NCBI RefSeq assembly: GCF_001676055.1 | Contig: NZ_LZEX01000023.1 | Span: forward strand, 186,001-250,000 | Length of the DNA: 64,000 nt | Direction: 5' to 3' | Origin: Morganella psychrotolerans | Lineage (GTDB): Bacteria > Pseudomonadota > Gammaproteobacteria > Enterobacterales > Enterobacteriaceae | Shown here: one piece after another, positions 38,716-61,442 of the stretch | Layout: each line of letters opens with the position of its first letter | Position numbering within the stretch: position 1 is the first letter of the stretch | The notes under the pieces: generated by a model | Seen by the model: only the letters and a program-made list of their open reading frames with translations | Databases searched by the model: none | Told to the model about the DNA's origin: nothing | Translations under genes and position numbers: made by a program

Positions 38716-41700
38716 TTACGCCTTCTCGATGTTAACTAAGAACGCTTTAAATTCAGGCGTTTGCGAGTTGGCGTCACCGACTCCCGGCGTCAGTGTATTG
38801 GCGATAAAGCCTTTTTTGTGTCGCACCTTCAAAGCCCCAGTGAATCGGGATCCCGACTGTTTCGATTGGTTTTCCGTCCACCATCAGGGTTTGCAGGCGC
38901 GGTGTGACGACAGCTACGGCGCGGATAAAGCCACGTTTGCTGCTGACTTTCACTTTATCGCCACTGCTGATCCCTTTGGCTTCACCCAGTGTTTCACTGA
39001 TTTCGACAAACTGTTCCGGCTGCGCGATAGCATTAAGCCGCGCGTGCTTGGTCCAGGTGTGGAAATGCTCAGTCAGGCGGTACGTTGTCCCCACATACGG
39101 GAACTCGGTATGACTGCCCAGGCGTTTCTTGTCATCTTCAAAGATACGGGCGGCCGGGTTAGAAATCACATTCGGGTGAAGCGGGTTCGTCCCGAGCGGT
39201 GTTTCAAACGGCTCATAGTGCTCAGGGAACGGACCTTCCGCCATTTTATCGATAGCAAACAGGCGGCCTAAGCCTTCCGGTTGCATGATAAACGGCCCTG
39301 TACCGACTTCCGGTGCCGAGGTGTTGAAGTCCGGGATATCATTACCGACCCATTTCTTGCCGTTCCACTCGATAAGTATGCGGTTTTTATCCCACGGTTT
39401 ACCCTGCGGATCCGCAGACGCGCGGTTATAGATAACGCGGCGGTTCAGCGGCCATGCCCATGCCCAGCCCAGCGTGTTGCCGATACCGGAAGGATCACTG
39501 TTATCCCGGTTCGCCATCTGGTTACCTTTTTCCGTCCAGCTGCCGGTGTAGATCCAGCAGGAAGATGCGGTGGTACCATCATCACGCAGGTGTGCAAAGG
39601 TACTGAGAAGCGCACCTTTTTTCGCCAGCAGATTACCGTCGGCATCAAAAAGATCTTCCAGTGCAACACCGTTATTTTCACGGGCAACTTCATCAGATTC
39701 CGGGTGGAATTTACGTTTGTAATCCCACGACATCTTCATCAGCTGATCAACACCTTTACCGCCTTCTTCTTCATATAATTCACGGATCTTATAAAGAATA
39801 CCGGCAAGGATCTGACCATCGTTGCGCGCTTCGCCCGGGGCATCCGCTGCTTTCCAGTGCCACTGTAACCAGCGTCCGGAGTTGGCAATGGAACCATCTT
39901 CCTCAGCAAAACAGGTGGATGGCAGGCGGAATACTTCTGTCTGAATTGATGCGGTGTCCACATCATTCATCTCACCGTGGTTCTGCCAGAAATTCGAGGT
40001 TTCTGTGACCAGAGGATCGACTGTTATCAGGTATTTCAGTTTACTCAGGCAACCAACGACTTTGTTTTTGTCCGGGAAGGAGGCAACCGGGTTGAAGCCC
40101 TGACAGATGTAGCCGGTTATCTCATTCTTATTCATCATGTCGAAATACTTCAGCACGTCATACGCCTGATCCCATTTCGGCAGCCAGTCATAGCCCCACT
40201 GGTTTTCCGGCGTAGCCGCATCACCATAGAAGGATTTCATCAGACTGACAAAGAACTTAGGATAGTTGCTCCAGTAGTTCACCTGGTTCGGCAGTGTCGC
40301 TTTCGGCGTATTTGCTTTCAGGTAGCTGGTGATATCCGTCTGTTTCTCTGACGGCAGCGTCAGATAACCCGGCAGGCTGGTGGACAGCAGACCGAGATCA
40401 GTCAGACCCTGAATATTTGAGTGACCACGCAGGGCATTAACGCCACCGCCTGCCACACCCATATTTCCGAGCAGTAACTGGATCATTGCCATAGTACGGA
40501 TGTTCTGCGCACCAACGGTGTGCTGAGTCCAGCCTAAGGCATACAGGAACGTGGCTGCGCGGTTTGCCGGACTGGTAGAGGCCAGAATTTCGCACACTTT
40601 AAGGAAATCTGCTTTTGGTGTACCGCAGATTTTCTCAACCATATCCGGCGTATAGCGGGATACGTGTTCTTTCATCAGGTTCCAGACACAGCGCGGGTTT
40701 TCAAGTGTATCGTCGCGCAGCGCATGACCATTTTCATCAAACTGGTAGTTCCAGGTTGCTTTGTCATAGCGGCGTTTTTCAGCATCATAACCACTGAATA
40801 AACCGTCATCAAAAGTGAAATCCTCACGAACCAGTAAAGCGGCATTGGTATAATGGCGCACATACTCGTCATGGAATTTCCCGTTCTGTGTCAGATACAG
40901 AATAACCCCGGAAAGGAAGGTAATATCAGTACCCGAACGGATAGGAATATAATGATCCGCAACTGAGGCTGTCCGCGTAAAGCGCGGGTCAACCACGATC
41001 AGCGTAGCATCGTTATTATTTTTGGCTTCCATCGCCCAGCGGAATCCGACAGGATGCGCTTCTGCCGCATTCCCGCCCATGACCACAACGACATTGGCAT
41101 TTTTGATATCAACCCAGTGGTTGGTCATCGCACCGCGACCAAATGTTGGAGCAAGACTTGCTACCGTTGGTCCGTGTCAGACACGCGCTTGGTTATCAAC
41201 TGCCAGCATCCCGAGGGAGCGGGTAAATTTCTGGGTTAACATGCCGGTTTCATTACTGGCAGCGGAAGCGCAAAGCATCCCCGTTGTCAGCCAGCGGTTA
41301 ACTGTGGTGCCTTCGTTGTTTTTTTCAATGAAGTTGGCATCACGGTCAGCTTTCATCAGACGGGCGATGCGTTCAAAGGCATCATCCCAGCTGATACGCT
41401 GCCACTTATCCGAGCCCGGAGCACGGTATTCAGGGTAGCGCAGACGGCTGTTACTGTGGATATAATCCAGCAAACCGGCACCTTTCGGGCATAATGCCCC
41501 GCGGTTAACCGGATGATCAGGATCACCCTCGACGTGGAAAATCGCTGATTTAGCATTCATGGCACCATCGCCCATGCTGTACATCAGCAACCCGCACCCG
41601 ACTGAACAATAAGTACAGGTGTTCCGGGTCTCTTTCGAGCGGAGTAATTTGTATTCCCGTACATTAGACATTGCTACTGACGGCATAAAGCCTAACGCGG

Positions 41701-57554: not shown

Positions 57555-58523
57555 TCAGCGGGTCAGGATCACTTCTCCTAAAATATTATCTTTCAGCAAC
57601 CCGCCATTTTTTGCCTGATAAAGAACAAAATCAATATCACGCGCCTGATAACGTTCGCGCAGAATAGTGGTGATTTCTTTAATCGGCTTGCCCTGTAATA
57701 ACCCGTCAATCACCATCGCCAGCATCAGTGACTGATCACTGTATGTCAGTGGATTAAGTGAGCCCATCACCCGGTTCAGGTAATGATCAAACGCCGGCAG
57801 CGGATTCTCCGGATTCTCCCGGTTCAGTTTGATCTGAACATCAATCAATGTATTAAAATCAATACCATGATTAGCAATCCAGTCACGTAATTCATTGACG
57901 TAGGCATCCACATCATCTGAATGCAGGGTGCTGATGGTGCCGCTGAAATTAAACAGATTCACCCCGCTGAGCCGCTGCAGAATATAAATTGCAACATACA
58001 GATTATAGCGGGATGGGATCAGCAGGCAGTTATCAATCCACCAGACTAATACATGGCGCGGGCTGATACGGTCATCAATATATTTCGCCGGCGGATACAC
58101 CATGATATCAACATCGGTTAATTCACCCAGGTGAGTCTGGATCAGGTTATCCACCTGACGCCAGTCCAGCCCGCCGCTGCCACAGCCGAGTGCGGGCATT
58201 GCCACCGATTTCAGTCCCTGTTTTTTAATCAGTGCTTTCAGTTCCCGCAGGCCATTTTCGATAAATTCATAGCCGGAGGGAGAGTCCCATTTGTCACGGG
58301 TCGGAAAATTAATAATATTCCGGCCGTGCTCTTCGGTAACGGATAACTGTCCGATACCGATCTTATTGCTTTTACACAACGCCTCATAGGCCCGTGCATT
58401 TATCGGATAATCCAGTTTGAATTGATAGGCTATTCCTTTCCCCATTACACCCTGGCAGTTAACCGCGTTAACCAGACCCCGGGCATCCGATCTCAGTAAA
58501 TCGCCTTTAAGGTATTTAATCAT
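57555..58523 (-). CDS. Macrodomain protein with DarG-like architecture, no DarT partner
   Basis: 322 residues. Residues 1 to about 150 are an ADP-ribose-binding macrodomain: YLKGDLLRSDARGLVNAVNC, QGVMGKGIAYQFK, and the C-terminal PALGCGSGGLDW loop. These are the features of DarG and ALC1-like macrodomains that remove ADP-ribose from DNA or protein. Residues about 155-322 form a second helical domain (RHVLVWWIDNCLLIPSRYNLYVAIY onward), similar in size to the DarT-binding part of DarG. darT would be expected directly upstream, but only a btuF relic and an AT-rich leader are there. It may be an orphan antitoxin, an anti-effector hydrolase or a defence component. Confidence 0.82.
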   Translation of the reverse strand: MIKYLKGDLLRSDARGLVNAVNCQGVMGKGIAYQFKLDYPINARAYEALCKSNKIGIGQLSVTEEHGRNIINFPTRDKWDSPSGYEFIENGLRELKALIKKQGLKSVAMPALGCGSGGLDWRQVDNLIQTHLGELTDVDIMVYPPAKYIDDRISPRHVLVWWIDNCLLIPSRYNLYVAIYILQRLSGVNLFNFSGTISTLHSDDVDAYVNELRDWIANHGIDFNTLIDVQIKLNRENPENPLPAFDHYLNRVMGSLNPLTYSDQSLMLAMVIDGLLQGKPIKEITTILRERYQARDIDFVLYQAKNGGLLKDNILGEVILTR

Positions 58524-58554: not shown

Positions 58555-58701
58555 CCTCCGCGGCCTTTAATCACAGGCAGATATGCCCCGAACCAATCCG
58601 GAATTATTCAGATTATAAATTATCCGGTTGCGGAGACCAGAATCCTCTGACATTGTCGCTTTCTCCGGCACCGACTGATATCAGAATCTTCTTGGGTTTG
58701 T
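58555..58701 (-). pseudogene. Decayed 3' fragment of btuF
   Basis: On the plus strand this segment parallels btuF 60655-60805 in order and orientation: GCGGCCT, CAGGC, GAACCAATC, TTGCGGAGACCAGAA, then GATATCAGAATC. It corresponds to about the last 50 codons of BtuF, with stops and small indels. The intact btuF lies 2 kb to the right, so the two copies flank the dCTP deaminase cassette as direct repeats. Confidence 0.8.
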
Positions 58702-58854
58702 TGTGAAAATAAAAAATTATCTAAGTAAAAATAATTAGCTAATATATTATTTGGAGTTCAATTTAAATAATTTGTCGTCATTGAAATATAGATATTGGTC
58801 ACTGAAATTATTTTTATACACACTAGTATTTATTCTTTTTTGATAGGGTGCCAT
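58702..58854 (+). ncRNA. AT-rich leader, candidate AvcI/DifV-type antitoxin RNA region
   Basis: 153 nt of very AT-rich sequence directly 5' of the dCTP deaminase gene, with no ORF. In the Vibrio AvcID/DcdV-DifV systems an inhibitory non-coding RNA is encoded just 5' of the deaminase gene and keeps it inactive until phage infection. The position is right. No sequence match could be tested, and RNA ends are not known. The candidate may extend into the btuF relic. Confidence 0.35.
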
Positions 58855-60261
58855 ATGGAATATAATTACAATGGATATCAGGATTCAGAAATAGTCATTG
58901 GTTTGGTCGGGGCTGTAGGTGTTGATTTAAATCAGGTAATTGACAATCTTAAAGATCAATTTAATTTCTTTAGTTATAATATAAAAATGATAAAAATATC
59001 AGAGCATGTAATATCGGTTCTGAGTAGTGAATTTGATGCTCCCCCTAAAAGATGTGACAGAGTTAATTACTTAATAGAAAAAGGAAATACATTAAGAGAA
59101 AAAACAAAAGATAATGCATTTATGGCTAAAGCAGTTGCTGCAAATATTAGTTTTTACAGAAATATCAATAAAAAGAAAGCAAAAAAAGACAATCCGTTAG
59201 GACGGGTTGCATTTATCATTTCATCATTAAAAACACCTGATGAAGTTCATGAGTTACGGAAAATATATTCTGATGGTTTTTTTCTGATAGGTGTTTATTC
59301 ATCTGAATCGTTAAGATTATCGGAGTTAACTAAAAAAAATATGACAGAAGAAGAAGCAGAGGAACTAATAGACAGGGATAGTGATGAATCCCATAAATAT
59401 GGACAGAAAACACGTGATACTTACCATTTATCCGACTTTTTTATAAATTATGATGGAAGTCCATCTAAACTTTCAAATGATACAAAACGTATAATTGATT
59501 TGATATTTGGTCATCCATACATTACACCAACTTTTGATGAATATGCGATGTTTATGGCATTCTCAGCGTCGCTACGTTCGGCTGATTTATCGCGGCAAGT
59601 CGGCGCTGTGGTGACAAATGATAATCAGATCCTATCCACGGGAGCAAATGATGTACCCGCTTATGGTGGTGGTTTGTACTGGCCCGAATATAATATTGAC
59701 AATAAAAAAATAGAAGACTATCAGGATGGACGGGACTATATAAGGGGGTTTGATTCAAATAAAAATGAACAGACTAATATTATTGATAGCATTATTGATG
59801 ATCTTGAGAATGATTCCAATATTGAACTTACTTCAGAACAACTGAAGGAAATAAAAATAAGATTAAGAAAGTCAAAAATAAAAGATATCACAGAGTACGG
59901 CAGAGTTGTTCATGCTGAAATGGAGGCAGTGTTATCTTGTGCAAGAAATAATATATCAACAAAAAATGCTACTCTTTATTGTACTACATTCCCATGTCAT
60001 AATTGTGCAAAGCATATTATTGCATCGGGTATTAAAAGAGTTTTATATATTGAGCCATATCCGAAAAGTAAAGCATTGGAATTTCATAATGATTCAATTT
60101 CTCTTATAGATGCAGATAAAGATAAAAAACATAATAAAGTGATTTTTGAACCATTCGTTGGTGTAGGACCAAAATCATTTTTCAAGTTGTTCTCAATGAA
60201 TATTGGTATCGGAAACATAATAAAAAGAAAAGATCATGAAGGAAAAAAAAATAGATTTTAA
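58855..60261 (+). CDS. avcD: AvcD/DcdV-type anti-phage dCTP deaminase
   Basis: 468 residues from the ATG at 58855 (AGGG upstream). A TTG 60 nt earlier is in frame but not credible. The N-terminal half has a P-loop-like glycine-rich strand-turn (VIGLVGAVGVDLNQVI, residues 12-27). It lacks the usual GK(S/T) but matches the GxVGxD form of this family, followed by kinase-like segments. The C-terminal deaminase has zinc motifs HAE (H353, E355) and PCHNC (C381, C384). Such proteins deplete dCTP/dCMP pools during phage infection. Base composition is strongly AT-rich and unlike btuF and dgt, indicating transfer. Two small genes follow in overlapping frames. Confidence 0.87.
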   Translation: MEYNYNGYQDSEIVIGLVGAVGVDLNQVIDNLKDQFNFFSYNIKMIKISEHVISVLSSEFDAPPKRCDRVNYLIEKGNTLREKTKDNAFMAKAVAANISFYRNINKKKAKKDNPLGRVAFIISSLKTPDEVHELRKIYSDGFFLIGVYSSESLRLSELTKKNMTEEEAEELIDRDSDESHKYGQKTRDTYHLSDFFINYDGSPSKLSNDTKRIIDLIFGHPYITPTFDEYAMFMAFSASLRSADLSRQVGAVVTNDNQILSTGANDVPAYGGGLYWPEYNIDNKKIEDYQDGRDYIRGFDSNKNEQTNIIDSIIDDLENDSNIELTSEQLKEIKIRLRKSKIKDITEYGRVVHAEMEAVLSCARNNISTKNATLYCTTFPCHNCAKHIIASGIKRVLYIEPYPKSKALEFHNDSISLIDADKDKKHNKVIFEPFVGVGPKSFFKLFSMNIGIGNIIKRKDHEGKKNRF

Positions 60262-60367
60262 TCGTGAAAATGCTAAACTTAAAACGGTAATGCTTCCTTC
60301 ATCTTATATTGAAAGAGAACGTTATGCAGCATCACAATTAGTTGATATGATGGAGAAAATAAAATGA
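60236..60367 (+). CDS. 43-residue ORF overlapping the deaminase gene
   Basis: MKEKKIDFNRENAKLKTVML and so on, ending DMMEKIK. It starts 26 nt before the avcD stop codon and ends in an ATGA overlap with the next ORF. It is charged and helical in composition, with no recognised motif. The overlap at both ends suggests deliberate translational coupling, because random AT-rich sequence rarely keeps such an arrangement. Function is unknown. It may be part of the defence cassette. Confidence 0.55.
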   Translation: MKEKKIDFNRENAKLKTVMLPSSYIERERYAASQLVDMMEKIK

Positions 60368-60546
60368 ATGATGACGAAAAAGAAGCATTTTTAAACCATA
60401 TAAGAGAATCCAAAGAAATTGTTGACGGATGGCCGGCATGGAAGCGTGAAAATAGTGATAGTATCAGAAATAATAATCACGAAAATCCACTTTATGATCG
60501 TCAACCGACCATTCGGCATAGCTCTGAAACTGAAACAAAGTCCTGA
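60364..60546 (+). CDS. 60-residue ORF, last gene of the deaminase cassette
   Basis: It begins MNDDEKEAFLNHIRESKEIV and contains DGWPAWKREN near residues 22-31, followed by a Ser/Asn/Arg-rich tail. The (x)WPxWK pattern recurs, as I recall, in small proteins of mobile elements, but no family name is claimed. Its ATG overlaps the stop of the 43-residue ORF (ATGA). It ends 75 nt before the end of the convergent btuF. Confidence 0.6.
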   Translation: MNDDEKEAFLNHIRESKEIVDGWPAWKRENSDSIRNNNHENPLYDRQPTIRHSSETETKS

Positions 60547-60620
60547 GTCATTTCTATTGATAAGCCACCCGTACCGCAGGTGGCGTTAATCCTGATAAAT
60601 TCGCCTTCTATACCATGATG

Positions 60621-61442
60621 TTATCCGGCAGTATTATTAATCTTCTCACATAACACTTCTGCGGCCTGTAACAGGCGGGGCGTGCCACGCTGGAACCAAT
60701 CAGCATTTATTGTGATGATGGGCACATCCAGTTGCGGAGACCAGAAGCGCCGGACGTTGCCGACTTCCCGTTCATCACCGGATATCAGAATCATTTCCGG
60801 TTTGCGCGTCAGTACCTGTTCCCGGTTGACCTGCGGCCAGGGCACCGGGCTGTCAGCAAAGATATTTTTGCCCCGGCACAGGGAAACCACTTCACTTTGT
60901 AATGTCGCGCCGGAGGCGGTAAAAATCGGGTTCTGACCAAACTGGAGAAAAATCGGTTTTTCCTGTTTGTCCTGATAGCGCGTTTTCAGTGATTCAACAC
61001 CCCGGCGCATATCTTCTGCGGCTTTTTCAGCCAGTGCCGGTTGCACGCTGTAGGGTGCCAGACGATCAAGGTCGCCTGCGATATCATCTAAGTTTTTCGG
61101 ATCGAAATACTCAACTTTTATTCCCAGATGCTCCAGCTGGCTCAGCGGACGCTGCGGGTTACCACCGCGCCAGGCCATAATGAGATCGGGTTTGAGCGCG
61201 ATGATGCGCTCAAGATTAAGCCCCTGCCAGTTGGACACCTGCTCAATATCTTTCGCCTGCGGCGGGTAATCCGCATTGGCGCTGACGCCGACCAGGTTAT
61301 CACCCATGCCCGCGGCATACGCCATTTCAGCCAGAGAGGGCGACAGTGCAATCACCCTCTGTGCGGCGGCCTGTGCTCCGCAGGCTGCGAGCAGCAACAG
61401 CGGAAGGCACAGACGGCGGACAAAACAGGAAACCGGGATCAT
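60621..61442 (-). CDS. btuF: Vitamin B12-binding periplasmic protein
   Basis: 273 residues with a signal peptide (to AQAAA). Two lobes are linked by a long helix, and the family blocks are [58 protein letters not shown]. It captures cobalamin for BtuCD, which is not in the window. Its 5' end overlaps mtnN by 4 nt. A fragment of its 3' part is duplicated at 58555-58701. Confidence 0.93.

Follow-up and report, generated by a model that had tools for sequence, protein, structure and literature searches.

The closest described systems are the AvcID modules, type III toxin–antitoxin systems in which a deaminase of the same family as the one analysed here is reported to deplete deoxycytidine nucleotides upon infection. 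As described in the accessible sections of two studies, the AvcD enzymes of Vibrio cholerae and V. parahaemolyticus are inhibited by the RNA AvcI, and phage shut-off of host transcription depletes AvcI and leaves AvcD free to deaminate deoxycytidine nucleotides (PMC10511110, PMC12409362). A minimum AvcI length of about 171 nt is given in the accessible part of the first study (PMC10511110). Within the available text of the open-licence literature, this RNA-controlled system is the only one for which control of the deaminase in the absence of infection is described. ComEB and T4-type dCMP deaminases have the deaminase domain fold and the zinc site in common with AvcD-type enzymes, but lack the kinase-like domain and have chains of 126–193 residues.

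The locus described here lies within a 64,000-nt stretch of Morganella psychrotolerans DNA, hereafter the window. An AvcI-like RNA was not detected at the locus, where a small protein partner with a WPxWK motif is encoded instead or in addition. With slightly better than even confidence, the locus is read as a two-gene dCTP-depleting defence operon in which the WPxWK protein would regulate, and probably restrain, the enzyme. A dedicated protein partner, if a true regulator, would represent a second mode of control for anti-phage dCTP deaminases.

The deaminase and its relatives

The 468-aa open reading frame (58855–60261, forward strand, ATG start) scored 497.2 bits against the curated NCBIfam equivalog NF041025 (cut-off 400 bits), with the match spanning residues 12–449 and model positions 1–433 of 437. 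Fold prediction placed an adenylate-kinase-like domain at residues 13–218 and a zinc dCMP-deaminase fold, zinc motifs included, at residues 225–444, giving the fusion of a nucleotide-kinase-like N-terminal domain to a zinc dCMP-deaminase domain that marks the family. The HAE and PCHNC motifs are each present in 57/57 aligned rows and GxxxxGK[ST] in 0/57, the N-terminal glycine loop being P-loop-like and degenerate. The match above the curated cut-off, the two-domain architecture and the HAE/PCxxC zinc site are shared with AvcD/DcdV (dCTPase in PADLOC), and membership of the anti-phage dCTP deaminase family is virtually certain. An ordinary ComEB dCMP deaminase was rejected as an identity, the score of 71.7 bits being far under the ComEB cut-off of 219.45 bits. 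A preliminary description of the window had proposed an AvcD/DcdV-type protein with a degenerate P-loop-like N-terminus and a zinc deaminase C-terminus, as distinct from a ComE-type dCMP deaminase; that assignment stands. Its inventory of the locus included the deaminase but neither the partner gene nor the out-of-frame C-terminal tail, both of which are described below. Depletion of dCTP by the window enzyme would follow by analogy with AvcD, the family member for which it has been published.

Relatives of the deaminase at 46–63% identity are spread across many phyla. The nearest carry a C-terminal tail of the LPxSYIERE type and a WPxWK partner, whereas deaminases of 33–38% identity from enterobacterial and Vibrio-genus genomes have a different tail and no partner. 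Deaminases of the distant kind were also observed on Klebsiella pneumoniae plasmids of about 4.6–4.7 kb (36% identity) and, without a partner, elsewhere in one of the Morganella genomes (36–38% identity; L177, G001:C31:8410-9759).

The cassette and its site beside btuF

The interval 58701–60560 has a GC content of 0.311 against 0.498 for the window as a whole, with sharp edges, in agreement with the strongly AT-rich island originally reported. Its left flank is a DarG-like macro-domain gene (57555–58523, reverse strand) found at this position in all six Morganella genomes compared, the match in G003 being without the first 51 residues. The DarG score of this gene, 200.5 bits, is under the curated cut-off of 250, and its neighbours are a DmsC-like gene on one side and the deaminase cassette on the other, with no DarT immediately adjacent. 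On the right, the last codons and stop of btuF (60621–61442, reverse strand) lie at the cassette junction. The cassette is closed by a GC-rich hairpin recognized by eye (60564–60584), and a similar hairpin occupies the same place in the Morganella genome FAM24679; it is absent among the sites of the computed promoter scan, which returned 7 sites against 11.4 expected.

At the left edge of the cassette lies a decayed duplicate of the 3' end of btuF (about 58590–58700, reverse strand). This copy adjoins the macro-domain gene both in the window and in genome G005, which has no deaminase, and shorter pieces of the btuF 3' end were seen by eye in the other Morganella genomes compared. Given its presence in the deaminase-free genome, the copy was not created by insertion of the cassette and is older than it, and a reading of the repeat as att-like scars of the cassette was rejected for the same reason. 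The decayed duplicate reflects an older event at btuF in Morganella, either an insertion or a duplication.

The deaminase lies between btuF and the macro-domain gene in two of the six Morganella genomes, the window genome and FAM24679, whose copy at the same site is 63% identical to that of the window. The other four (G001, G002, G003 and G005) have about 0.2–0.5 kb at the site and no deaminase, so the gene is not universal at this locus in Morganella. Judged from sequence, acquisition of the cassette from outside is supported, the horizontal character noted at the outset being upheld by the base composition (GC 0.31), the presence at the site in two of six genomes and the scatter of relatives over many phyla. 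The accompanying suggestion that btuF could be a recurring integration hotspot was not demonstrated, the cargo at the site being of a single kind and present in those two genomes alone. Between them, pS was 0.68 for the deaminase, 0.47 for the tail and 0.36 for the partner, and for the flanks 0.62 (btuF), 0.56 (macro-domain gene), 0.55 (dgt), 0.50 (dmsC-like) and 0.45 (dmsB-like), with mtn omitted as misaligned; protein identity was 64.5% for the deaminase against 84–96% for the flanks. With a single kind of cargo in two genomes, two separate acquisitions and a single old one, with later losses and rapid change of the protein, are equally possible.

The displaced tail and the leader

At a run of nine A (60243–60251, forward strand) the reading frame of the window deaminase departs from the family C-terminus. 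The family tail (LPSSYIERE...), similar to the in-frame tail of FAM24679, is encoded in another frame by a 43-aa ORF (60236–60367, forward strand), the stop of which overlaps the ATG of the following ORF at 60364–60546. Within a set of 80 deaminase loci, from which L007 had been dropped as a duplicate of L032, the tail is in frame in 79, the deaminase frame reaching at least position 488 in the count of the window protein; L108 is the exception. An SYxERE-like stretch is present in the tails of many relatives, and certain tail residues are nearly invariant. The displaced tail falls outside the curated NF041025 model, and the window copy lacks the in-frame tail that characterizes the partner-bearing clade in our own, unpublished grouping.

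The displacement may signal that the window copy is impaired. A decaying pseudogene, in which the shift of frame within the A9 run strips the conserved tail and the operon is no longer functional, would agree with the in-frame tail of 79/80 relatives and with its nearly invariant residues, but the remaining ORF is open and retains its zinc motifs. Moreover, relative to FAM24679 the tail is conserved above the deaminase body (79% identity over 38 codons against 64.5% over 453), and pN is below pS for the tail (0.13 against 0.47) and the partner, the body having a pN of 0.22 with a pS of 0.68; loss of function is placed on the unlikely side. The conservation of the tail points to a frame change that is recent, artefactual or bypassed by slippage. 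An assembly or sequencing error in the homopolymer, leaving an ordinary and intact gene, is a tentative possibility that fits both the occurrence of a nine-base run within a draft assembly of 46 contigs and the preservation of the start–stop overlap with the next ORF in the frame of the tail. The window copy is either altered or mis-assembled, or it makes both protein forms via slippage at the A9 run.

The AT-rich leader (58701–58854, forward strand) bears on an arrangement of the AvcID type, in which a leader RNA antitoxin would hold the deaminase and the WPxWK ORF would be an accessory protein, for instance in infection sensing or enzyme assembly. Such an arrangement has its precedent in the AvcI-inhibited enzymes of V. 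cholerae and V. parahaemolyticus, to the extent described in the accessible sections of PMC10511110 and PMC12409362, and some close relatives of the window locus are alignable over about 200–280 nt upstream. However, the leader measures 154 nt from the btuF remnant to the ATG against the AvcI minimum of about 171 nt, has no match in Rfam and shows no unusual RNA fold (z = +0.33), and eight Photorhabdus leaders covary weakly (term −0.09). No AvcI-like RNA was detected by these three routes (Rfam, fold z and the Photorhabdus leaders, used without an AvcI model), and control of the window enzyme by a leader RNA is considered unlikely.

The WPxWK gene and its linkage to the deaminase

The ORF at 60364–60546 (forward strand) encodes a 60-aa protein with the WPxWK motif and is conserved beside the deaminase. 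Searches of Pfam, NCBIfam and PADLOC gave no match, and the match in PHROGs was phrog_38465 (E 1.5e-4), a nameless phage-library family whose entry gives neither a function nor a link to deaminases. This family was matched by 23 of 28 partner sequences at E ≤ 0.01, while the same 28 gave zero matches in NCBIfam and PADLOC; the partner is thus a gene without a model in the PADLOC defence library. A villin headpiece match in Pfam, single among the 28 members (E 0.0035), and a PDB match of WPxWK ORFs (E 0.24) were both rejected as support for an identity. WPxWK genes are about 37–75 codons in size, and only W, P, W and K are invariant in the profile built from the 28 sequences (A1); a joint alignment with the fused copy of locus L055 (A2) was discarded as the wrong Trp-Pro had been matched up. 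Substitution patterns indicate that the partner is under purifying selection, with pN below pS in 45/45 pairs from seven groups of near relatives, dN 0.20 and dS 0.48 between the window and FAM24679, and dN 0.05 and dS 0.48 between V. ostreicida and the V. nigripulchritudo plasmid. No description of the partner was found among the listed open-licence papers; the two studies of 2022 that founded the field (Tal et al.; Hsueh et al.) lie outside that scope and may mention the ORF. The term 'deaminase' is absent from the main text, the part of the source covered by the term search, of a 2026 survey of M. morganii toxin–antitoxin systems (PMC13227991).

An ORF with the motif W[PA].W[KR] was found by regular expression at −60 to +500 nt from the deaminase stop in 44 of the 80 loci; of 1767 equally sized windows drawn at random from the same loci, 9 contained the motif. 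With profile A1 at E ≤ 1e-3, a threshold that excludes L093 (E 0.62), the partner was recovered in 49 loci, consisting of the 44 already found, L082, L099, L104, L109 and the fusion L055, and it lies directly downstream of the deaminase in all 48 unfused cases. The partner was not found in the remaining 31, two of which, L083 and L108, are on contigs that run out no more than about 125 nt from the stop codon of the deaminase, too early for judgement. In 31 of the 44 regex loci, the partner start, picked by rule, comes before the deaminase stop has ended, in 14 of them by exactly 4 nt. In L055 (2529–4109), the C-terminus of a Methylocucumis deaminase is extended in frame by the WPxWK segment, and the predicted model of this fusion has a pLDDT of 91.2 overall, about 86 over residues 501–510 and about 71 over residues 511–520. 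As in two-protein toxin–antitoxin systems, a small protein is encoded beside the candidate toxin.

When whole genomes were searched with the profile (36 of the 80), all 23 regex-positive genomes matched, 22 once and G431 twice (second match E 1.2e-4), together with three of 13 regex-negative genomes (G449, G452 and G453), where each match begins no further than about 20 nt downstream of the deaminase stop. Since the positives had been preselected by the motif and as profile sources, the weight of this search lies on the lack of extra copies and on the three negatives. Across 394 genomes of the order, only the window genome gave a strong partner match (E 3.7e-16), eight further matches at E 0.001–0.009 being near chance for that number of genomes. 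The deaminase was above cut-off in 11 of the 394, and the 12 other deaminase loci of this search (L124–L135, two just below cut-off) were all without partner, L127 at 52% identity among them. Sixteen of 392 genomes of the family had a deaminase at E ≤ 1e-40; all eight deaminases of at least 56% identity were accompanied by the partner and the eight at 33–38% were not. In the genus of Vibrio ostreicida (196 genomes), six had a deaminase, two with the partner and four (33–38%) without. Nine of the ten partner-positives of the family and Vibrio searches were the window or loci of the set of 80, with only L169 new, and these nine were therefore left out as further support.

Two more partner-positive deaminase loci were found on a Vibrio nigripulchritudo plasmid (L112) and in record MT838710 (L113), and an E. 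coli plasmid (L114, 38% identity) has a deaminase without partner. A plasmid search with one partner sequence gave no match, yet plasmid L112 has the partner, so that search was insensitive. MT838710 is an unverified 'Bacteriophage sp.' scaffold of 4954 bases that encodes a deaminase of 55% identity together with the tail and the WPxWK partner; given that its deaminase groups with those of the Pseudomonas fluorescens group in the tree, it is perhaps no phage. Ten viral contigs carried a relative of the deaminase. Among the seven included in the partner count, the four with a full-length deaminase at 51–56% identity (L185–L188) all had the partner, and it was not found in L189 (end cut), L190 (partial) or L191 (32%); L192–L194 (31%, deaminase domain only) were left out. 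On a quick tree of 88 deaminases with some long branches, the partner label needs 7 changes against a shuffled mean of 28.6, and 22 rows at 47–52% identity form a supported clade without partner. Partner-bearing systems occur in Pseudomonadota, Myxococcota, Acidobacteriota, Bacillota and Planctomycetota. On this genomic linkage, the partner is very probably a real gene dedicated to the deaminase.

Possible roles of the partner and of its phage counterparts

In the proposed two-gene operon, the enzyme would upon infection turn dCTP and dCMP into dUTP and dUMP, and phage DNA synthesis would stall. The gene that follows, overlapping or abutting the deaminase stop in most relatives, would encode the small WPxWK protein, which would bind the enzyme and regulate it, most probably by keeping it inactive until its release on infection. 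The role of inhibitor taken by itself falls a little short of an even chance, and linkage and sequence data do not separate inhibitor, activator and subunit. The many family deaminases without a partner indicate that the enzyme can work without one, and the L055 fusion is hard to reconcile with a free, labile antitoxin. The protein could alternatively be an activator or phage sensor that resembles a segment of a phage protein and licenses the deaminase when the true phage copy or the infection state competes for the site that it occupies. The fusion to the enzyme in L055 and the core held in common with phage proteins are compatible with such a role, the many deaminases without a partner speak against it, and it is considered improbable.

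The WPxWK core was found in phages with one bacterial partner query, which returned 28 phage records at E 6e-4 to 0.4: MT838710, in which the deaminase is also present, and 27 records of Pseudomonas phages, among which several are duplicate deposits. The window partner returned MT838710 and three phage records at E 0.3–1, and a Photorhabdus partner MT838710 alone. Three Nankokuvirus phages (PAK_P3, Epa16 and PH826) have the core within proteins of 378–474 aa, and phage D3 has it within a 426-aa protein; these large proteins adjoin small genes, and in two of the phages Ead/Ea22-like genes are close by. Stand-alone versions occur in the Erwinia jumbo phage Kaldavass (38 aa) and in Xanthomonas phage XbC2 (37 aa, 79% identical over 29), and in two Demerecviridae the core is inside a 158-codon gene (tblastn E 0.4–0.6). 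In both of these jumbo phages, Kaldavass (L199 2492–2608) and XbC2 (L202 1501–1614), the ORF was observed three to five genes beyond a polynucleotide kinase.

The phage matches are individually weak, with a best tblastn E of 6e-4, most at 0.03–1 and many inside large proteins, and a search of viral contigs with the partner alignment gave nothing useful. Among the 1036 ORF segments of nine phage loci, profile A1 scored nine at 29.7–43.7 bits; as the loci were chosen by similarity, these scores support homology and are not a survey. Only MT838710 and MT839973 in the phage collection had a deaminase match covering at least 80% of the query, and a core carried within phage proteins, in records without a full-length deaminase, is what would be expected of a decoy. 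It is conceivable, though doubtful, that a large set of deaminases is controlled by a WPxWK protein antitoxin replacing the AvcID RNA, and that phages from several groups unrelated to one another (jumbo phages, Demerecviridae, Nankokuvirus and D3) carry the domain as decoy antitoxins that would keep the enzyme off during infection. The assignment of the phage copies as decoys is speculative, and the tiny genes would make this counter-defence idea testable.

Elsewhere in the window, a SECIS_3 selenocysteine insertion element was observed at 41124–41182 on the reverse strand (Rfam, 84.3 bits).
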